Shown: positions 9,846-25,000 of the stretch, one piece after another
Layout: every line of letters begins with the position of its first letter
Position numbering within the stretch: position 1 is the first letter of the stretch
Made by a program: the position numbers and the translations under genes
Source of the DNA: a virus
IMG/VR virus record: IMGVR_UViG_3300013285_000040
Span: 1-34,659 of that record
Reading direction: 5' to 3' (one strand)
DNA: 34,659 nt
Notes under the pieces: generated by a model
What the model was told of the DNA's origin: nothing
What the model saw: only the letters and a program-made list of their open reading frames with translations
The model's database searches: none

Positions 9846-10370
9846 ATGACCGTCGGAAAAACCATTCAACACAAAACCACCGGCAAGTTCGTGAGAACGC
9901 CGGATCAGATCGCCATAGACCGCAGAGCGGCAGACCTCCGATCCATTGGCTACACCTATCAAGCAATCGCCAATCAGTTTGACGTCTCAGTTGGCACCGC
10001 ACACGATATGGTTCGTCGAGCCGTTGCGGAGATCCCGACGGAGGGAGCAGAGGAAGTCAGGAAGATTGAACTAGAGAAGATCGACTCGTCTGAGCGTCAA
10101 CTACAAAGGATCATCAGGAATCCACCACCGAAAGTTTCAGCGTCAGGCAAAGTAGTCAAGGACGACAAAGGCGAAGTCATCATCGACGAAGGCGTTCGCA
10201 TGGAAGCAATCGACAAGATCCTGAAAGCGCAAGCGGCTCGCGCTCGACTCCTCGGACTGAACGCACCGACCAAGATCCAGGGAGAAGTGTTGATATACAA
10301 CGTCGATCCAGACAGGGAGCAGAGGATTCGTGACCTTATTGAACGAGAACTCGACGCAAAACGAGCCTGA
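9846..10370 (+). CDS. Terminase small subunit (putative)
   Basis: This encodes 174 residues. An N-terminal helix-turn-helix (GYTYQAIANQFDVSVGTAHD, about 36-55) is followed by helical segments and the closing KAQAARARLLGLNAP, a pattern typical of small terminase subunits of phages of Gram-positive hosts. The protein would recognise the packaging site and regulate the large subunit. The 3' end overlaps the large terminase gene by 41 nt. The family assignment rests on domain order and position rather than a diagnostic motif. Confidence 0.8.
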   Translation: MTVGKTIQHKTTGKFVRTPDQIAIDRRAADLRSIGYTYQAIANQFDVSVGTAHDMVRRAVAEIPTEGAEEVRKIELEKIDSSERQLQRIIRNPPPKVSASGKVVKDDKGEVIIDEGVRMEAIDKILKAQAARARLLGLNAPTKIQGEVLIYNVDPDREQRIRDLIERELDAKRA

Positions 10371-11688
10371 CTTTGATTACCTCGGCGGCACAAGAGTCGA
10401 GTGGATCAAGAACCTTGCAAGGCGAGAACAGTTAGAACCCGAAGGCGAATGGACAACGTGGCTTTACCTCGCAGGTCGAGGAGCCGGTAAGACTCGCTCC
10501 TGCGCTGAGTGGCTGGCGTGGAAGGTCTGTGAGAAGCCAAACGTGCGAGCAGGGATCATCGCTCGAACCTATGCCGATGCCAGGGACACTTGCGCAGAGG
10601 GTGAGTCGGGCATTCTCTCGGTGCTCCGGCAATACAAGATGCTCGACAACTACAACCGCTCCATCGGTGAGATCACGCTGAAAAACAAAAGCAGGATCAA
10701 ACTATTCAGCGCCGAGGAACCCGACAGGCTCAGAGGCCCACAACATGAGTTCATCTGGGCTGACGAGTTGGCAGCTTGGCAATACGAGGACACCTGGGAC
10801 ATGGCGCAGTTCGGACTTCGGCTTGGCCAGGCTCCACAGATTGCTATTGCCACAACACCTCGACCAACTCCCCTGCTTCGCAGGATCATCGCCGATGAGA
10901 ACACCGTCATCACGAGAGGCACAACCTACGACAATCTCAAGAACCTTGCTCCAACCGTTCAGACCGCAATCCTTGCTCGATACGAAGGCACTCGACTTGG
11001 CCGACAGGAGCTGTTCGGTGAGATGCTCGACGACGTACCTGGTGCGTTATGGACAATGAACACGATCGACGACAACCGAGTTGCTGAGGCTCCACAGATG
11101 ACACGCATCGTCGTAGCCATTGACCCTGCCGTGACCTCTGGTGAGAACGCGGACGAGACAGGCATTGTCGTTGTCGGGCGTGGAGAAGATGGTGACGCCT
11201 ACGTCCTCGCAGACCGCACGATCAGAGACACACCAAACGCTTGGGCGAATAAAGCGATTGCGGCGTTCAGAGAGTTTGGAGAGATCGGCACCATCGTCGG
11301 CGAAAAGAACCAGGGAGGCGACCTGATTGAGAACGTGTTGCGCTCAGTTGATCCTCACATTCCCTACAAAGGCGTCACGGCAAAGCAAGGCAAGAGACTC
11401 AGAGCCGAACCGATCTCGGCGCTCTACGAGCAGGGTCGAGTTCACCACGTCGGAGTTCTGACGGCACTTGAAGATCAACTGTGCGGCTGGGTGCCCGATA
11501 GCGGATTGTCACCGGACCGACTTGACGCGTTGGTTCACGGCATCGCTGAACTGAACTTGGCGAGAGGTTCGTCGGCAGACAGGTGGTTCGCTGAGATCGC
11601 TCCTCCGTGTATCGTATGCTCACACCCCATGAACCCATCAGAGGCGCTCTGCAACAACTGTGGCGCGCATAGGAAGGAACGTGCATGA
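10330..11688 (+). CDS. Terminase large subunit
   Basis: This encodes 452 residues from GTG 10330. Walker A is GRGAGKTRS (about 49-57). Walker B with catalytic Glu is FIWADELAAW (about 138-147). The RNase H-like nuclease domain shows AIDPAV (about 263), GEKNQGGD and DRLDALVHG. It is the ATP-driven packaging motor that cuts concatemeric DNA. An added zinc-ribbon-like tail (CIVC near 427, CNNC near 441) lies after the nuclease domain, which is not usual for the family. With apparent circular permutation of the window, headful packaging is a reasonable inference. Confidence 0.95.
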   Translation: MTLLNENSTQNEPDFDYLGGTRVEWIKNLARREQLEPEGEWTTWLYLAGRGAGKTRSCAEWLAWKVCEKPNVRAGIIARTYADARDTCAEGESGILSVLRQYKMLDNYNRSIGEITLKNKSRIKLFSAEEPDRLRGPQHEFIWADELAAWQYEDTWDMAQFGLRLGQAPQIAIATTPRPTPLLRRIIADENTVITRGTTYDNLKNLAPTVQTAILARYEGTRLGRQELFGEMLDDVPGALWTMNTIDDNRVAEAPQMTRIVVAIDPAVTSGENADETGIVVVGRGEDGDAYVLADRTIRDTPNAWANKAIAAFREFGEIGTIVGEKNQGGDLIENVLRSVDPHIPYKGVTAKQGKRLRAEPISALYEQGRVHHVGVLTALEDQLCGWVPDSGLSPDRLDALVHGIAELNLARGSSADRWFAEIAPPCIVCSHPMNPSEALCNNCGAHRKERA

Positions 11689-11969: not shown

Positions 11970-14417
11970 ATGGCAATCTGGAATCGCAAGTCAAAGACCT
12001 CAAACGAGGATCTCGCAAAACTGATCGCCGAAGAAGTATCAAAGGCCATGAACCCGTTTGCGGCGGCTGGTGGTTCTGTCGTCTCTACGATGCCAGGCTT
12101 CCAATCGGGCTACACCGGAGCCGGAGCGTCGGGTCTACTTCAGACTCCAGGAACTCCGGCGATGCCGCTTCCCCGACCAGGCGATTCGTTCGGCTCGCAA
12201 CTTGGGCCAGCGATGCCATACCTGCCAGCACCGCTCGATCCGGTATTCGACGATAGCGGCAGAGCCTTGCCACGTCGCTACCAATACGACGTAGCGCAGA
12301 ACCTCAACCTCAACGACAAACACGTTCCCTGGTCAACGCTTCGTGCGCTCGCCGAACAATGTGACGTCGTTCACCGTTGCATCGAGATCAAATGTTCAGA
12401 GATCGTTGGTCTCGAATGGGACTTCACCGTGTCCGACCACGCCATCTCAAAGATCATGCAAGAGCAGAGCGTCGGTCACGCAAAAGCAAACATGATAGCG
12501 AGAGACGAGTTCGGCGAGGAGATCGACAGGCTCAAGCAGTTCTGGGAGAACCCCTACGTCCACGGAGACCGAGGCTGGGCCGAATGGATCACCGAGGCTT
12601 GCTGGCAACACTTTGTGTACGACGCAATCCCTGTCTACCCGCGTTACAACTTGGGTGGAGACGTCATTGGCTTTGAGATCATTGACGCCGCAACGATCAA
12701 ACCGCTTCTTGACAACCGAGGTGACATACCGCATCCACCAGCTCCGGCCTACCAACAAATCCTCTGGGGATTCCCTCGTGGCGAATATCAAGCCAGCCCA
12801 ACAAACGACGGTGAGTTCTTTACCGACAAGGGACAGAACGGCGAATACGTCAGAGACCAACTTGCTTACTTTGTCAAGAACCGACGAACCTGGTCACCTT
12901 ACGGCTACAGCGCAACGGAGGAGTCAATCCCTGCGGCGTCGCTCTACCTGGAGCGTCAGATGTGGCTCAAGAGTGAGTTCACAGAAGGCACGATGCCGAC
13001 CACGTTCATGAAAACCGACAGCGAGGAACTTGACCACCTGAAACTCGCATCACTCGAACGGGTCATCAACGACACGCTCACCGGCTCAACTGCCGAGCGT
13101 CACCGAATCAAGATGCTTCCCAAGTCGTTCGACCCCGTGTTTGCTCCAACCATCGACGAGCGATACAAGGCCGACTACGACGAGTTCCTCATCAAGCGCA
13201 TATCGTCACCGTTTGGGATCACGCCAACGCAACTCGGAATCCTTCCTCGGAGCGGACTTGGCGGTAAGGGAATGGCCGAGGGAGAGCAGGATAACGCCGA
13301 GACGATGAGCAAGCGTCCGACTGAAGCGTTCTTAGTTGACATGGTGAACTCACTCTCACGTCGATTCCTTGAGACCAGCCGCTCTGTCACCTTTGTTCTT
13401 GCTGACCCTGGCACGATTCGAGAGAGCGTTGAGAAAGCAAAAGCATTTCAGACGTCGCTCTACTCCGGTCAGAAAACTCTGAACACCGTTCAGTCTGAAC
13501 TCGGACAACCGCTCTACGATATGCCCGAAGCCGACGAGCCGTTCATCGTCGCCGGTAACACCGTGACGTTCCTGCGAGGAATGTTAGAGACCTCAGCAAG
13601 CGGAGAGACTACAGCGCAGGTCGGAACCGCCGGAGCAGAAGAAACCACCGGCACGGTCGGAGACGCAACACCCGTCGAGCCTGCTGAGCCTGCCGAGCCT
13701 GTAATCAAAGCGGCAGACAACTCATTCACTCCACCGCAAGGCGTTCGTGAAGAAGCAAAGAGAGCACTTGCCTGGATCGCAGACGGCGAGGCCGGTCAAG
13801 GATTCACAGATGTCGGACGCAAGCGAGCAAGCGACCTAGCCGCCGGACGATCCGTGAGCATGGACACGATGAAGCGGATTGCCTCTTACCTTGCTCGACA
13901 CGAAGTTGACAAACAGGGAGAGGGCTGGAGTCCAGGAGACAAGGGTTATCCGAGCCCAGGTCGCGTTGCGTGGGCGGCGTGGGGCGGAGATCCGGCGAAG
14001 GCGTGGACGAACGGCATCGTGGATTCAGACAACAAAGTTGACGATCCCGAGTGGGAAGATCTCATCGGAGATCAAAAGGGAGAGCCGACCAACACCGAAC
14101 TTTACGAGCGCATCAAAGGCGAAGCGAGAGACAAGTTTGACGTCTACCCGTCCGCAGTTGCGAATGCTTGGCTCACTCAGGAATACAAACGACGTGGTGG
14201 CACCTATCGAAAGCCCGATACCAAATCAGCCGACGAGATCAAAGCGTTCAAGTCGTTCGTCTCAAAGCGCAAGAGCGCGGGCAGGTGGCGTGACTTTGTG
14301 TTTGAGACAGTTGACGCCGACGTAGCAAAGGTGTTGAACGAGCAGGCTGAGGCCGACGTAAAAAAAAAGACAAGAAGCGCAGGTCGCCGAGTGAGCTACC
14401 AGGAGCAGACCGACTAG
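11970..14417 (+). CDS. Portal protein with extra C-terminal domains
   Basis: This encodes 815 residues, much longer than a usual portal (450-550). Residues about 90-545 form the portal core (VHRCIEIKCSEIVGLEWDF; RISSPFGITPTQLGIL). A Pro/Glu-rich linker (about 548-590) follows. Residues about 592-683 hold a domain with SLARHEVDK-like and YPSPGRVAWAAWGGD motifs, and about 708-748 hold YPSAVANAWLTQEYKRRGG. Both are normally seen in other phage proteins and are added here. The end contains nine A residues and the slippery heptamer A_AAA_AAG at 14363; a -1 shift would continue into the MuF-like gene and give about 1059 residues. It forms the twelve-part DNA entry ring in the head. Confidence 0.9.
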   Translation: MAIWNRKSKTSNEDLAKLIAEEVSKAMNPFAAAGGSVVSTMPGFQSGYTGAGASGLLQTPGTPAMPLPRPGDSFGSQLGPAMPYLPAPLDPVFDDSGRALPRRYQYDVAQNLNLNDKHVPWSTLRALAEQCDVVHRCIEIKCSEIVGLEWDFTVSDHAISKIMQEQSVGHAKANMIARDEFGEEIDRLKQFWENPYVHGDRGWAEWITEACWQHFVYDAIPVYPRYNLGGDVIGFEIIDAATIKPLLDNRGDIPHPPAPAYQQILWGFPRGEYQASPTNDGEFFTDKGQNGEYVRDQLAYFVKNRRTWSPYGYSATEESIPAASLYLERQMWLKSEFTEGTMPTTFMKTDSEELDHLKLASLERVINDTLTGSTAERHRIKMLPKSFDPVFAPTIDERYKADYDEFLIKRISSPFGITPTQLGILPRSGLGGKGMAEGEQDNAETMSKRPTEAFLVDMVNSLSRRFLETSRSVTFVLADPGTIRESVEKAKAFQTSLYSGQKTLNTVQSELGQPLYDMPEADEPFIVAGNTVTFLRGMLETSASGETTAQVGTAGAEETTGTVGDATPVEPAEPAEPVIKAADNSFTPPQGVREEAKRALAWIADGEAGQGFTDVGRKRASDLAAGRSVSMDTMKRIASYLARHEVDKQGEGWSPGDKGYPSPGRVAWAAWGGDPAKAWTNGIVDSDNKVDDPEWEDLIGDQKGEPTNTELYERIKGEARDKFDVYPSAVANAWLTQEYKRRGGTYRKPDTKSADEIKAFKSFVSKRKSAGRWRDFVFETVDADVAKVLNEQAEADVKKKTRSAGRRVSYQEQTD
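14363..14369 (+). other. Predicted -1 frameshift site A_AAA_AAG (portal to MuF)
   Basis: In the portal frame the codons are GTA AAA AAA AAG. The last seven bases, A AAA AAG, are the canonical -1 slippery heptamer used in dnaX. After slipping, reading continues at GAC 14369 into a frame with no stop until 15148. The frame contains no ATG, GTG or TTG before 14567. The run of nine A could also allow transcriptional slippage. Confidence 0.65.
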
Positions 14418-15148
14418 ACAAGATCGTCGCTCACTACGCTCCGCTCATTTCAAAAGCACTCAGCGCCGGTTACAAGCAGACAGACTTTCTCTCGTCAATC
14501 CACCACGCTCAATCACCGAGCAAAGCGATAGCGGCGGTTCAGAACATCATCTATGACCCAGCGCCGATGCAATCGGTTCTGCGCTCAATCACCGCCGACG
14601 GTTACCTGTCGGGCATCAAGGCAGCTGGAGACTCACACCCTGACATCGGAATCCAACAGATCGGCCCGACCTCGACGCTCAGTTCTGGCATCGACTGGGA
14701 CACATGGAAACCAGGCGACACCGAAGCCGCACTCAAGACCGCAGACGGTGGACTCAAAGACCTACTCGATCAAGTGAACCTCACGATCAAAGGCATCGAC
14801 GACACCACCATGAATCGGCTTGGCAACATTCTCTCGGACGGTCTCGCCGAAGGTATTGGCCCAGACGACATCGCAAGAGACATGAGAGATTACATTGACG
14901 ACCCAGCGCGAGCCGAGATGATTGCCACCACCGAAGCCAACCGAGCACAAACAGACGCCACGTCGGATCAACTTCGAGAGATGGGATTCAATCAGTTTGA
15001 TTGGCTTGCTTACGACGGAGCGTGTGAAGAATGCTTAGACCTTGAGGACAACAACCCTTGGGACATGGACTCCGATCAACCACCCGATCACCCGAACTGC
15101 CGGTGCTCCATCGTTGGCTCAGGTGAAGCGACACAGAGCGGAGAGTAA
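14369..15148 (+). CDS. MuF-like head morphogenesis protein (frameshift extension of the portal)
   Basis: From GAC 14369 the -1 frame encodes 259 residues. The first ATG is only at 14567 (193 residues from there) and lacks a good ribosome site. The upstream part is coherent protein (LDKIVAHYAPLISKALSAG, then IAAVQNIIYDPAPM), so starting at 14567 would discard coding sequence. The C-terminal region TTEANRAQTDATSDQLREMG, then GACEECLDLE and DHPNCRCSI, is the Cys/His-rich part typical of MuF proteins. MuF proteins sit inside the head near the portal and help assembly or are injected. Fusion to the portal would fix the stoichiometry at the vertex. A sequencing error in the A-run would instead give a plain fusion. 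Confidence 0.8.
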   Translation, partial: DKKRRSPSELPGADRLDKIVAHYAPLISKALSAGYKQTDFLSSIHHAQSPSKAIAAVQNIIYDPAPMQSVLRSITADGYLSGIKAAGDSHPDIGIQQIGPTSTLSSGIDWDTWKPGDTEAALKTADGGLKDLLDQVNLTIKGIDDTTMNRLGNILSDGLAEGIGPDDIARDMRDYIDDPARAEMIATTEANRAQTDATSDQLREMGFNQFDWLAYDGACEECLDLEDNNPWDMDSDQPPDHPNCRCSIVGSGEATQSGE

Positions 15149-15239: not shown

Positions 15240-16721
15240 ATGAGCAACAACATCACTTATGCCTACGCCGGAGACATCGTAAAGACGCAAGACGAAGATG
15301 GTTCGCTGATGGTCTATGGCAAAGCGACAGGCCCCGACCTTGACCTCGACGAGCAAGTCTGCGACGAGTCATGGCTCAAAACTGCCGTCCCTGAGTGGTT
15401 CAAGTTTGGCAACGTGCGAGAGATGCACCAGCCAATCGCCGCAGGCATTGGAGTAGAGTTGAACGCTGAAGGTGATGACTGGTTCTTGAAGTCACAGGTT
15501 GTTGACGACAACACGGCAAGGAAGATTGAAGCCGGTGCGCTCAAGGGTTACAGCATCGGGATCAAAGGTGCGAAAGTCGTTCACGATGACGTGGCAAAGG
15601 GTGGTCGAATCGTCGGTGGCACAATCGTCGAAGTCTCCTATGTTGACCGCCCGTGCAACCCAACCGCAATCGCCAACATAGCCAAGAGCGTGAATGGAAC
15701 CTGGAAGGCAGTTGAGTCCTCGGTTGACTCGACTGAGTTCATCACGAAGATTGACGACATCTCAAAAGACGCAATCACCGAATCGGGCGATGCCGTTGAA
15801 GCCGAGTGGGACGCCAGCGCTGGACAAACAAAAGATCCAGAGATGTACCCAGAGGACTACCAATGTTCTGTCTGCGACGGACTTGGGAAGTACCCTGAGA
15901 CCGGCGCTGAATGTCAGAACTGCGGAGGCACCGGACGCGTTGACGCCGAGCCTGCCGAGGCTGGCATCGCACCGAATGAGATCGTGGACTCTGAGAACAA
16001 AGACGCCGCAGCTGAAACAGCAAAGGCCGACGAGATCAGAGAGAGCCTTCCAACTCAGATCCTCGCACTAGTCCCTGAAGTCGAGAAGGTGGAGCACAAC
16101 GCCGCCGACCTCATGGCAGTCCGACGTTCACTCATCGCTCTCATCAAAGCCGAACTCGACGAGATTGACATGGGCATGGAGGACGAGGTGTGCGACGTTC
16201 GCGACCTCCTCATCTCGCTCAAGACATTCCTCGACTGGTGGACAGGCGAAGCCAGCGAAGGCGAAACAGAAGCGCCGTTCGTTGAGTGGGAAGAAGATTA
16301 CGACGACAAGGAGAATGAAATGGCTTACGTTGCTATGGGTGTTTCACCCGACACAATCAAAGCGGCCAAGACTGGCGACAAAGAATCAGTCACCGCACTC
16401 CGAGACGAGATCCGCAAAGCGTTAGGCTTTGAGGACTTCGCAGAATCCGTAACCGAGATCGCTAAGGCGGCTCAGCGAGAGGAAGTTGACTTCCTGAAGG
16501 CTGAACTGGAGCGCATCAAAGAGATGGCGGCACCTGGTGGGCCTGCAATCACCAGAACCCACGCTCAAAGTTCTAAGGCATTAGACGCTGAGCGAATGAC
16601 GGCAGAGGCAGAACGCCTCCGCCAGGTTGCCCGACAAGTTACAGACGCAGAGTTGAAGGTCAAGTACCTCAACAAAGCCGACAGTCTTGCCAAATCAGCC
16701 GCCGAAATCCTCGGCGCATAA
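15240..16721 (+). CDS. Prohead protease fused to a scaffold-like region
   Basis: This encodes 493 residues. The N-terminal about 160 residues resemble phage capsid-maturation (XkdF/HK97-type) serine proteases: candidate His63 in VREMHQPIA, Ser105 in ALKGYSIGI, and YVDRPCNPTA. A DnaJ-like zinc-finger pair follows at about 208-240 (CSVCDGLG, CQNCGGTG), similar to the one in the replication gene. The remainder is acidic and helical with a coiled-coil end (AERLRQVARQVTDAELK), as in scaffold proteins. The product would act as an internal scaffold that is cleaved during maturation. GGAGGAC lies upstream of the ATG, after a 91-nt gap. Confidence 0.85.
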   Translation: MSNNITYAYAGDIVKTQDEDGSLMVYGKATGPDLDLDEQVCDESWLKTAVPEWFKFGNVREMHQPIAAGIGVELNAEGDDWFLKSQVVDDNTARKIEAGALKGYSIGIKGAKVVHDDVAKGGRIVGGTIVEVSYVDRPCNPTAIANIAKSVNGTWKAVESSVDSTEFITKIDDISKDAITESGDAVEAEWDASAGQTKDPEMYPEDYQCSVCDGLGKYPETGAECQNCGGTGRVDAEPAEAGIAPNEIVDSENKDAAAETAKADEIRESLPTQILALVPEVEKVEHNAADLMAVRRSLIALIKAELDEIDMGMEDEVCDVRDLLISLKTFLDWWTGEASEGETEAPFVEWEEDYDDKENEMAYVAMGVSPDTIKAAKTGDKESVTALRDEIRKALGFEDFAESVTEIAKAAQREEVDFLKAELERIKEMAAPGGPAITRTHAQSSKALDAERMTAEAERLRQVARQVTDAELKVKYLNKADSLAKSAAEILGA

Positions 16722-21869: not shown

Positions 21870-22364
21870 ATGCTTGTTGAGTTACCCAATAATCAAAGCG
21901 CAGTTCTGAGAAACTACGACGAACTCACCGAGCGACAGGCTCGAAGGATTCGTGGAGCTCTGCGAGGTTGGCTAGAGCAAGCCGGAATCATGAGCGCCTC
22001 AGGCTTTGACGAAGCCGATCCTGCGACGTGGGGAAACCTCAAGGATCTCGGCATCGACGAAACAGCCTACGAGCGATATGCGGACAGGTGCATCGTTGAG
22101 ATGGTCAAGTCGTGGACGTTTGGAGATCTCCCAACGATGGAAACCGTTGGCGACTTACTACCGGCGACCACCTATCAAAAGTTGAGTGAGAAGGCGATTG
22201 AACTTTCCAGAGGCGACGAGGCAAGCGGAGTGGAGGGTGCAACAGACCCAAAAGTGCTTACAGAAAACTCGAACGTCTCCGCGCTCATCTCCTCGGACGT
22301 GGCCTCGAACCAGTTGACCCCGACATCGCCGACCAATGGAGAGAGTACCGTTATCGCGCTTTGA
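21870..22364 (+). CDS. Tail assembly chaperone (G-type)
   Basis: This encodes 164 residues. The N-terminal region is helical (ELTERQARRIRGALRGWLEQ), ending in a low-complexity tail. Position between tail tube and tape measure, plus a slippery site near the 3' end, identifies it as the short chaperone of the G/GT pair that keeps tail proteins soluble during assembly. CCCAAAA at 22247 allows a -1 shift, giving a longer version. The short form simply reads on to TGA at 22362-22364. Confidence 0.85.
   Translation: MLVELPNNQSAVLRNYDELTERQARRIRGALRGWLEQAGIMSASGFDEADPATWGNLKDLGIDETAYERYADRCIVEMVKSWTFGDLPTMETVGDLLPATTYQKLSEKAIELSRGDEASGVEGATDPKVLTENSNVSALISSDVASNQLTPTSPTNGESTVIAL
22247..22253 (+). 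other. Predicted -1 frameshift site CCCAAAA (tail chaperones)
   Basis: In the G frame the codons are GAC CCA AAA GTG, so C_CCA_AAA is a canonical X_XXY_YYZ heptamer. The -1 frame is blocked by a TGA at 22199 and is open from 22202 to 22474, so the shift must occur between these points. This is the only good heptamer I found there. Confidence 0.85.
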
Positions 22365-22474
22365 TCCCGATGAGCCATGAGCAGTTCATGGACGAGCCGA
22401 CGAGCGTGATTGACTGGACGATAACTCTTGACGGACTAAGGATTGAGGTAGAAGAAGAATGGCAACAGAACTAA
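22253..22474 (+). CDS. Tail assembly chaperone T-extension (made by -1 frameshift)
   Basis: These 73 residues are read after slipping at CCCAAAA, giving a GT protein of about 201 residues. The sequence contains LLGRGLEPVDPDIAD, QWREYRYRALIPMSHEQFMD and VIDWTITLDGL, a pattern I recognise from frameshifted tail chaperones of actinobacterial phages. It has no start of its own and overlaps the next gene by 16 bases. In related phages a fixed small fraction of ribosomes shifts; the ratio here cannot be read from sequence. Confidence 0.85.
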   Translation, partial: SAYRKLERLRAHLLGRGLEPVDPDIADQWREYRYRALIPMSHEQFMDEPTSVIDWTITLDGLRIEVEEEWQQN

Positions 22475-22887
22475 TCTCCGGCGTCAAAGCGTTCAATGAG
22501 TCAATCAAGGTCATGAACCAAAAAATGCGAATGGCCGGACGCCAGATTGTCGTTGAAGGCGGCCAGGTCATCGCCAAGAACTCGCGTGAGATGTTCACCG
22601 AGCCAGGCAACGGACGAAAGGGACGACACGTTGGCCCCGAAGGTGGGCCGCCAAACGTCCGAACCGGTTATCTTGCTCGCTCTATTCAATCAAGCAGACC
22701 GGAGGAAATCGGAACCGGCAGATGGACAACTTCTACTGGCCCGAAAGCAATCTACGGGCGAAGGATAGAACTCGGATTCCCAGAGGGGAAGTATGATTAC
22801 CCATATCTCCGACCAGGATTCGAGAAGTCAATGCCCGAAATAAGAAAGATATCTGAGCGCGTGTGGGCAGGTGTTCTTCGTGGCTGA
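22459..22887 (+). CDS. HK97 gp10-like tail completion protein
   Basis: This encodes 142 residues. The pattern is that of the gp10-like family: helical start (VMNQKMRMAGRQIVVEGGQV), then RTGYLARSI, a GPKAIYGRRIELG strand-turn, YPYLRPGFEKSMPEI and a C-terminal helix. These proteins usually finish the tail end or the neck. The usual place is upstream of the tail tube; here it lies between the chaperones and the tape measure, a departure from common order. It overlaps both neighbours. Confidence 0.75.
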   Translation: MATELISGVKAFNESIKVMNQKMRMAGRQIVVEGGQVIAKNSREMFTEPGNGRKGRHVGPEGGPPNVRTGYLARSIQSSRPEEIGTGRWTTSTGPKAIYGRRIELGFPEGKYDYPYLRPGFEKSMPEIRKISERVWAGVLRG

Positions 22888-25000
22888 GTTCTTACCTCCC
22901 GTCGTTGCGACGCTTCTCGCCGACACAAAAGAGTTCACCGCAAAGATGGACGGCGCTATCGGCAAGATGGCCGAGGTCGATGCCGCATCAGCGACAGCTG
23001 GTGCCAGGATTCAACAGAACCTTGGCAAAATGGCACTCGCCACGATTGGCATCGGCGTTGGATTCGGTGCCGTCGGAGTGAAAATGGCGGTGGACTTCCA
23101 AGGCTCCATGACCAAGGTGCAAAACAGTAGCGGCATGGGTCAGCAACAAATCAAACAACTTGGGGACGCCTTCCTCGGAACCGCATTCAAGAGTGAGTTC
23201 AGTGCACAGGAACTCGCAACCGCATTCGCAGGTGTTGCCGGTCAGTTGACATTACTCAATGGTCACGTCTTGACGACAAAGCAGACAATGGACGTGATGC
23301 GAAGTGCCTCTGATCTTGCGGTGGCAAAGAACATAGATCTCGCCTCCTCGACGCAAGCCATCGTCTCTGTGATGAAGGTCTTTCAGACTCCGCTCAAGGA
23401 CGTCGCCGACGCTACCAATCAACTTTACGTTGCCTCCGACTTGAGTGGAACTTCAATCGGTGGGGTTGTCGGTCAATACACAAAACTCCACGCCGCTTTA
23501 GGCATCAGCATTCCTTCTATGAAGGATATGAACGTGCTCATGGCCGATATGAACAATCTCGGCGTCGGTCAGGGTCGAACGATGATGAAGGTGCAACAGG
23601 CAATCGGCGGAATGTTAGACCCAACAAAACAATGGACAGCCGCACAACACGATCTCACCGGCAACATCTACACACTCGACGGTCACTTCATTGGAATGTC
23701 TGCGCTCATTGACCAGATGAGTCCGAAGTTCAAGGGTATGACAGACGAGCAAGCGAAGGCGGCGGCACAGACGTTGGGTTGGGGCAAAGCCTCGGACGCC
23801 ATGATTGAGATTATGCGTGGCGGAAGTCCGGCCTACGACCAAGCGACGCAAGCGGTAGAACGTCACGTCACCGTTGTCAAAGCCGCACAGGAAGCGTCAA
23901 AGAACTTCAAGAACGAACTCTCTACACTTGAATCAGGAACGAAGGACGTGTTGACGCAGGTAGGACTCGCCTTATTGCCAGCCGCTCAAGACCTTATGAA
24001 CTGGGCGAAGAACGCAATCGACTTCTTCAAGGCTCACCCGTTGATCTCAGAGATTGCTTCTGACGCGGCGATTGGCGCATTCGCATTAGCCGTCGCGTTC
24101 AAGGTTGGCAAGACAATGGCATCGGTATGGGACACGGGCGTCAAAGCCTTCGACGCAATAAAGAATCTGTTCGTGGGTGGCGTCGCGAATACCCCCATTG
24201 AGTTGAACACTCTTGCCACGCAAGCAAATACCGACGCTCTGTTGGGTAACGCCGGTGCTGGTGCCGTAGGTGGAGCAGGAGGAGCAAGTAAAGATCTGGT
24301 CAAGGGTGCGCCGGTATTGTTTGGACTTGGTACTTTGCCAGAACTTATTGTTGGAGGAGTTGTTGCGGGCGTCGCTCTAGGACTTGCTAAGTATGTTGTG
24401 GGGCCAGCGACAAACGCCGCATTCAACGCAGTAAGCCCATCAGAGGTTGTTTCCTCAAGTCGAGTAACTCCACAAAAAAGCGGTGGCATCTGGGGAGGAA
24501 TAACAGACGTCGCAAGTTGGCTTACCGGAGCAAAGCCGGTGAGCGTATCCGCTCCGACTGGAGCGCAGATAGATCACGCTGGTCGTCAGGGTGGGAATGC
24601 CGGTGTGCCAAACGTGCCCCCTGCGCCATTGGCGTTACTGCCAGGGACAAAGGTTGGCATTCAAGGAATCGTTGGAACAGACCTAAACAGCGCCGGAGTT
24701 GCCGTCAAGTCGCAAGTCAAAGTTGACATTCCAAAGGGCGTAAGTATCTCAAACGCTCCTGGGGTTCATCTAATGGGGCCTGTTGTTTCTCACATTGCAA
24801 CTACAGCGACGAACTCCTCGCATCTCGCAGGCATTCAAGGTGTGCGAATCTCAACGGCGACCACAGCGCAACATGCCTACCACCTCGCCGGTATTCCTGG
24901 CATCAGAAACTCAACATCAAGCACAGCAGATAACACACGCAATATCCTAAGTGCCGTGAGCAAAGCAAACAAAGTGACTGTCACGGCGAGGTTCTCCTAA
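22871..25000 (+). CDS. Tape measure protein
   Basis: This encodes 709 residues from GTG 22871 (a second in-frame GTG is at 22880). It is helical at the start (ADTKEFTAKMDGAIGKMAEV) with a tape-measure core (VDFQGSMTKVQNSSGM; DVMRSASDLAVAKNIDLAS; FQTPLKDVADATNQLYVASD) and hydrophobic segments in the middle (AAIGAFALAVAF; LPELIVGGVVAGVALGLA). The C-terminus carries short repeats, with HLAGIQGVRISTATTAQ followed by HLAGIPGIRNSTSSTAD. It sets tail length during assembly and is ejected with the DNA. By the usual rule of about 1.5 angstrom per residue, the tail would be near 100 nm. Confidence 0.92.
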   Translation: MFFVAEFLPPVVATLLADTKEFTAKMDGAIGKMAEVDAASATAGARIQQNLGKMALATIGIGVGFGAVGVKMAVDFQGSMTKVQNSSGMGQQQIKQLGDAFLGTAFKSEFSAQELATAFAGVAGQLTLLNGHVLTTKQTMDVMRSASDLAVAKNIDLASSTQAIVSVMKVFQTPLKDVADATNQLYVASDLSGTSIGGVVGQYTKLHAALGISIPSMKDMNVLMADMNNLGVGQGRTMMKVQQAIGGMLDPTKQWTAAQHDLTGNIYTLDGHFIGMSALIDQMSPKFKGMTDEQAKAAAQTLGWGKASDAMIEIMRGGSPAYDQATQAVERHVTVVKAAQEASKNFKNELSTLESGTKDVLTQVGLALLPAAQDLMNWAKNAIDFFKAHPLISEIASDAAIGAFALAVAFKVGKTMASVWDTGVKAFDAIKNLFVGGVANTPIELNTLATQANTDALLGNAGAGAVGGAGGASKDLVKGAPVLFGLGTLPELIVGGVVAGVALGLAKYVVGPATNAAFNAVSPSEVVSSSRVTPQKSGGIWGGITDVASWLTGAKPVSVSAPTGAQIDHAGRQGGNAGVPNVPPAPLALLPGTKVGIQGIVGTDLNSAGVAVKSQVKVDIPKGVSISNAPGVHLMGPVVSHIATTATNSSHLAGIQGVRISTATTAQHAYHLAGIPGIRNSTSSTADNTRNILSAVSKANKVTVTARFS

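Follow-up and report, generated by a model that had tools for sequence, protein, structure and literature searches.

The portal/MuF junction

The stretch of DNA analysed here (the window) is IMG/VR virus record IMGVR_UViG_3300013285_000040, 34,659 bases in length, and our subject is the border within it between a portal gene and a reading frame for a MuF-like domain. The first gene is identified as a phage portal by its profile matches and by its place directly behind the terminase large subunit gene at 10330-11688; its match to Pfam Phage_portal, at 21 bits, lies under the curated cut-off of 39.1. The second frame is identified as MuF by PF04233, with 40.5 bits against a curated cut-off of 29.6, and by PHROGs 595 and 115. 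The features of the junction are as follows.

11970-14417, plus strand: portal gene, frame 0 product of 815 residues (PHROG 2662, portal, E 7e-30; PHROG 12)
14360-14368, plus strand: run of nine A residues, with A_AAA_AAA also in phase at 14360; same length in the relatives L083, L088 and L094
14363-14369, plus strand: slippery heptamer A_AAA_AAG in the portal phase, the G at 14369 ending the run
14369-15148, plus strand: -1 extension that encodes MuF, 259 residues before the stop, the frame being open from 14351 (Pfam Phage_Mu_F, E 5e-10)
14415-14417, plus strand: frame 0 stop TAG, 15 codons past the heptamer
14567-14569, plus strand: first ATG of the MuF frame, an unlikely start
14822-15112, plus strand: the Phage_Mu_F domain itself, in which CxxC and HPxCxC residues are conserved (columns invariant across 26 sequences)

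The portal frame reads GTA AAA AAA AAG at the junction, and the -1 (MuF) frame is open from 14351 to 15148, preceded by a stop at 14348-14350. This is the anatomy expected of a programmed -1 frameshift, with an X_XXY_YYZ heptamer in phase at 14363-14369 and the downstream frame at -1. An earlier note on this DNA had described the MuF frame as meeting the end of the portal gene at nine A residues with A_AAA_AAG in phase, exactly as is found at 14360-14369, and our recalculation of the slip product, 800 codons in frame 0 and 259 in the -1 frame, returns the 1059-residue fusion that it had placed beside the 815-residue portal. Among the 24 open reading frames (ORFs) of the window that were scanned, A_AAA_AAG occurs in phase once only, at this junction.

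The same note had remarked that the MuF frame is open for about 200 nucleotides without a start codon before its first ATG, and there is indeed no ATG, GTG or TTG in 14351-14566. From the portal stop to 14566 the window differs from L083, a close relative on a separate contig (portal core 98% and MuF 95% identical), at no first, one second and six third codon positions of the -1 frame, and over the same interval the -1 frame is the sole conserved frame against all seven of seven further, more distant relatives. These comparisons indicate that the MuF frame is coding, and under purifying selection, upstream of its first ATG. AlphaFold2, given an alignment of 26 sequences, folds the entire extension with a mean pLDDT of 93.3. 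ATG 14567, residue 67 of the extension, falls in a predicted helix that begins at residue 65, and is an unlikely start because it would cut this helix. Since the stretch before the ATG codes for protein and is needed for the predicted fold, translation must enter MuF upstream of 14567. Among solved structures, the best sequence match to the MuF extension did not improve on E 0.33, and none matched its fold under E 0.001.

Conservation of the site in relatives

Relatives were gathered in two sets. For the first, IMG/VR was searched with the whole portal of the window, the core of that portal, the MuF of the window and two further portal cores (L096 and L162), which returned 166 loci containing portal and MuF together, reduced to 89 (the window counted, near-copies remaining) when identical portal-core stretches were dropped; a scan based on L258, together with three loci from GTDB, added 23 further distinct loci. 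The contig of L258 is filed under an archaeal metagenome bin, from which we draw no conclusion as to host. One of the four heptamers A_AAA_AAG, C_CCU_UUA, C_CCA_AAA and C_CCU_UUU is present in phase at the junction of 91 of the 112 distinct loci, 22 of them (the window included) with an early frame 0 stop and MuF at -1 and 69 with portal and MuF in a single ORF; the two sets were classified by different search methods, and loci without a detectable MuF, often at contig ends, were excluded before counting.

In the first set MuF lies in the portal frame at 58 loci and is offset at 31, every offset being -1 and none +1. An in-phase heptamer stands in the overlap of 19 of the 31 offset loci (A_AAA_AAG in 4, C_CCU_UUA in 6, C_CCA_AAA in 5 and C_CCU_UUU in 4), with the frame 0 stop 4 to 16 codons past it. 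The remaining 12 have an ATG at or just past the portal stop, and their MuF is apparently an ordinary separate gene; four of these (L007-L010) also contain an in-phase TTTGGGG. The second set comprises 14 fused loci, 4 at -1 and 5 at +1. Of its fused loci 12 carry C_CCA_AAA in the linker, with a -1 stop 1 to 48 codons on (the exceptions are L321 and L322); the heptamer is present in three of the four -1 loci (L258, L287 and L313), the other, L259, having an ATG; and the five +1 loci have MuF starts of their own and no heptamer. Over both sets, 22 of the 35 loci with MuF at -1 carry the heptamer. The earlier note had proposed asking whether homologues keep the A-run and the frame offset: the offset and an in-phase heptamer are kept, while the type of heptamer varies.

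Most relatives are thus in-frame fusions that use the same kind of site in the opposite sense, an arrangement that the earlier note did not foresee. In 57 of the 58 same-frame fusions of the first set (the exception is L154) a junction heptamer is in phase, C_CCA_AAA in 54 and C_CCU_UUA in 3, and a -1 shift there would end at a stop 4, 5 or 9 codons past it. The slip proline occupies one alignment column in all 36 non-redundant sequences among these 57, and in the three fusions with C_CCU_UUA (L197, L201 and L202) the -1 stop is kept. For this fused class we infer that frame 0 gives the portal-MuF fusion and the slip the short portal, as in Escherichia coli dnaX. Upstream of the heptamer in fused relatives (for example L098:4106-4165), AGATAA, two variable bases and GATA are conserved beyond coding need, as is TTACTAA downstream.

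Chance and synonymous constraint

Across the portal cores of the 89 relatives, 39,755 codon positions in all, none of the four junction heptamers occurs in phase. They were defined after inspection, which tells against the force of this figure, and the fairer yardstick is the occurrence of any in-phase X_XXY_YYZ, at 94 of the 39,755 positions. In the overlaps of the 19 slippery loci such heptamers stand at 23 of 605 in-phase positions, compared with 4 of 586 in each other phase. Elsewhere in the long ORFs of 50 fused-type loci, Pro-Lys is encoded as C_CCA_AAA in 1 of 217 cases.

Scans for synonymous constraint place the strongest signal of the gene at the junction in both classes, with z -10.5 (10 changes against 76.4 expected) in the fused genes (36 sequences) and z -4.7 (6 against 21.8) in the -1 type (16 of the 19 sequences). 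In both, therefore, site and phase are conserved beyond coding need. The constrained codons include an ACT, which contributes to the -1 stop TAA, and also ATA and GAT codons upstream.

In a tree built from 54 portal cores, of which 32 are fused, 14 slippery -1 and 8 separate, the labels cluster yet interleave, and the fused state requires at least five changes. Some sisters carry different heptamers, A_AAA_AAG in one and C_CCU_UUA in the other, as L088 and L091 do (100/95), and L162 and L216, of the -1 type, are sister to the fused L219 and L221, with C_CCA_AAA in all four (100/99). Selection for two products predicts just this, a single site retained through change of heptamer and reversal of frame. 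Survival of the site through frame reversal suggests that both portal forms are needed, in not very different amounts. The efficiency of shifting would then be expected to lie far from zero, perhaps near 50% as in dnaX.

Cultured phages

A single in-phase C_CCA_AAA also stands immediately ahead of MuF, at codons 736 and 737, in the Arthrobacter phages Sonali and Mufasa8, whose portal cores are only about 22-23% identical to that of the window; a -1 shift would reach a stop 9 codons past the heptamer. Both are annotated as single ORFs, gene 3 of Sonali as a portal and MuF-like fusion. A query with the Sonali portal returned a single locus, with a 100% identical portal, and did not widen this group. 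The Microbacterium phages Casey, Neferthena and Schubert were considered as portal-MuF fusions and rejected, the portal being a separate gene and MuF fused to a protease.

A proposed frameshift at the junction

What mechanism best accounts for a site so placed? We propose that the portal gene would yield two proteins from one start through programmed -1 ribosomal frameshifting at the portal/MuF border. In the window, some ribosomes would stay in frame 0 at A_AAA_AAG and stop 15 codons on, giving the 815-residue portal, and others would slip back one base, by tandem tRNA slippage, into MuF, giving the 1059-residue portal-MuF protein; in most relatives the roles would be reversed. Both forms would take their places in the ring of the special vertex, so that MuF would be incorporated at a set ratio with none left free, and its attachment to a share of the portal subunits would make separate targeting unnecessary. 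On sequence evidence, we put the probability that a programmed -1 ribosomal frameshift at this junction makes portals with and without MuF at roughly 0.87. That the shift would fix the ratio of portal to MuF, as the earlier note supposed, is consistent with this scheme.

Several observations weigh against this interpretation. Own MuF starts and none of the four heptamers are found in 18 of the 112 loci, five of them at +1; this is the case that the earlier note had named as contrary to its idea, and it does exist, on other branches only, so that the idea is still supported. Three fusions (L154, L321 and L322) are without the heptamers, and at L162, L216 and L217 an ATG overlaps the heptamer, where MuF might start, leaving these loci ambiguous. 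Among eight cultured single-ORF portals examined, six have no heptamer at the junction (Dismas, Didgeridoo, Polewnik, Strzyga, MMB025 and THSA-485A), although for Dismas (Pfam: portal only), Didgeridoo and MMB025 a MuF domain is not separately confirmed. Nor are stimulatory elements conspicuous in the window, where no downstream RNA structure stands out and the only upstream Shine-Dalgarno-like element, judged by eye, is a weak GAGG. Folding of 29 loci lent downstream structure no support as a general stimulator, since neither the window nor most fused relatives exceeded background, and a single weak structure came from RNAalifold when it was applied to 36 fused junctions. In favour of the interpretation, on the other hand, all five of five loci in the C_CCU_UUU clade form a 6-bp hairpin that begins 7 nucleotides after the heptamer, with one paired change in L184, and strong stems are present in L096, L162 and L201.

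Four other explanations have to be weighed against ribosomal frameshifting. RNA polymerase might slip on the nine A residues, the fusion then coming from edited transcripts with a missing or extra A, as for the short form of Thermus dnaX, which according to part of the review PMC5009743 is made by transcriptional slippage. Besides this precedent, the run is nine residues long in all four A-type loci (the window, L083, L088 and L094). Relatives nevertheless have C_CCU_UUA, C_CCA_AAA or C_CCU_UUU at the same place, runs as short as those in these heptamers are not expected to cause polymerase slippage, and tandem -1 tRNA slippage accounts for all four types and for their phase; we regard slippage by the polymerase as improbable. 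The conserved string around C_CCA_AAA in the fused class might instead be a recombination boundary between portal and MuF modules. Phage module borders can be marked by short shared strings, and the domains vary strongly on both sides of this junction. The constraint, however, is on the phase of the heptamer and on a -1 stop after a varying number of codons, while other codons of the string vary synonymously; C_CCU_UUA replaces the heptamer in L197, L201 and L202 with the stop kept; and the -1 loci would go unexplained. A boundary as sole explanation is rejected as quite unlikely, a double role being possible.

The remaining two explanations are simpler. Portal and MuF may be ordinary overlapping genes, MuF starting internally at a codon such as ATG 14567 and the heptamer being incidental, as the relatives with their own MuF gene and the ATG on the heptamer in L162, L216 and L217 might suggest. 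As sole explanation we reject this as very improbable, given the start-free stretch that codes at -1 before the ATG and the predicted helix that the ATG would cut; the heptamers and the mirrored fused class would also be left unexplained. Homopolymers, lastly, are error-prone and many relatives are in-frame fusions, so that the offset might be a sequencing or assembly indel, or a broken gene, in what is truly a single frame. The length of the homopolymer, which the earlier note wished to see checked, is borne out: nine A residues and the frame offset recur in L083 on its own contig, and nine A residues followed by G in the more distant L088 and L094. The same offset occurs at non-homopolymer sites in 15 more loci, and the MuF frame is under purifying selection; an indel has next to no likelihood and is rejected. 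Sequencing error and plain gene overlap are both disfavoured because homologues keep the offset and the place of the heptamer while its type changes.

Comparison with known systems

The nearest parallel is dnaX (tau/gamma), where one gene gives two products that differ in their C-terminal domains by way of A_AAA_AAG, and where, according to part of PMC5009743, frame 0 gives the long or the short form, with the reversed arrangement in some bacteria. That is a chromosomal polymerase gene, whereas here a phage structural gene shows four heptamer types and both arrangements within one gene family. In the tail assembly chaperones G/GT, likewise, a conserved -1 slip adds a C-terminal extension in a morphogenesis gene; lambda gpG and gpGT are absent from the mature virion and made in a ratio of about 30:1 (PMC5009743, in part), whereas here the gene concerned encodes the portal, which forms a ring in the virion, and MuF is what the shift would add. 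In phages A2 and PSA, according to the accounts covered in part, frameshifting puts extended structural proteins into virions: the major proteins of head and tail in A2, those of capsid and tail shaft in PSA. For the A2-like major head protein of phage BH1 the slippery sequence is given as CCCAAAA (PMC6950654, in part). Our case differs in concerning the portal rather than a capsid or tail shaft protein; PSA uses +1, and those parts of the accounts mention no mirrored arrangement.

Portal and MuF-like fusions of Microbacterium and Arthrobacter phages, reported in part of PMC7302621 and present in our sample as L261 and L262, have the same two domains in one gene, and PHROG 2662 matches both parts. 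Unlike the plain fusions described, Sonali and Mufasa8 carry an unannotated slippery site and -1 stop; Dismas and Didgeridoo do not. In the portion of the PRFect paper covered (PMC10885494), VIP2 and MuF-like genes are listed among predicted frameshifts that may be real, being fused elsewhere, but in one sentence only, with no site or mirrored arrangement given. The word "portal" is absent from the main text of that paper and from the first 300,000 characters of the review PMC5009743. We found no description of a portal-MuF frameshift in the literature searched, whose coverage leaves out most subscription journals and all preprints, so that an unseen report is possible. Frameshifts in phage structural genes (G/GT, A2 and PSA) and portal-MuF fusions are thus already known, and it is the proposed frameshift in the portal that would be new.

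Portals have so far been treated as rings of one polypeptide. We think it probable that this whole portal family makes two subunits, with and without MuF, at one site that has outlived repeated reversals of frame, giving a mixed ring, with no MuF ever in free form and the number of MuF copies determined by translation, and that plain-fusion annotations in cultured phages hide a short portal. If so, a large phage group builds its portal ring from two forms in a ratio set by the ribosome, and gene callers miss one of the two forms in every phage with the site. It would also account for the presence of a few copies of MuF at a single vertex, and would bear on MuF copy number: the MuF protein of SPP1, gp7, is a portal-binding protein that is taken into the procapsid in a small number of copies and increases infectivity (PMC6316719, in part). 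The family is, moreover, a natural experiment in frameshift evolution, in which the slippery sequence changes and the frames reverse while the two products appear to be kept, and the two cultured phages Sonali and Mufasa8 make the proposal directly testable.

Other features of the window

Between portal core and slippery site lie two further segments.

13713-14039, plus strand: accessory domain, function unassigned, portal residues 582-690 (PHROG 2859, E 4e-39)
14085-14240, plus strand: DUF5872 segment, portal residues 706-757 (Pfam PF19197, E 2e-6, above cut-off)

In Sonali and Mufasa8 the same slot, which in the window spans 13713-14240, holds a NUDIX domain, and it has the look of a site at which cargo domains can be exchanged. 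Proteins labelled in their records as major capsid or capsid maturation protease also contain the PHROG 2859-like stretch. The gene after MuF, at 15240-16721, has head maturation protease PHROG matches and, mid-protein, a CxxC-rich DnaJ-like zinc motif (a weak Pfam match, E 0.004).

Another likely -1 frameshift lies at 21870-22475, two genes before the tape measure gene (22871-25000). Here C_CCA_AAA lies at 22247-22253, near the end of ORF 21870-22364, and the -1 frame after it is open for 73 codons; the region looks like a tail assembly chaperone G/GT pair. The heptamer is kept in the near relative L340, and in L341, which is the record of L193, C_CCU_UUA stands before a -1 extension of similar kind, so that these tail-chaperone-like junctions use the same heptamers as the portal/MuF border.

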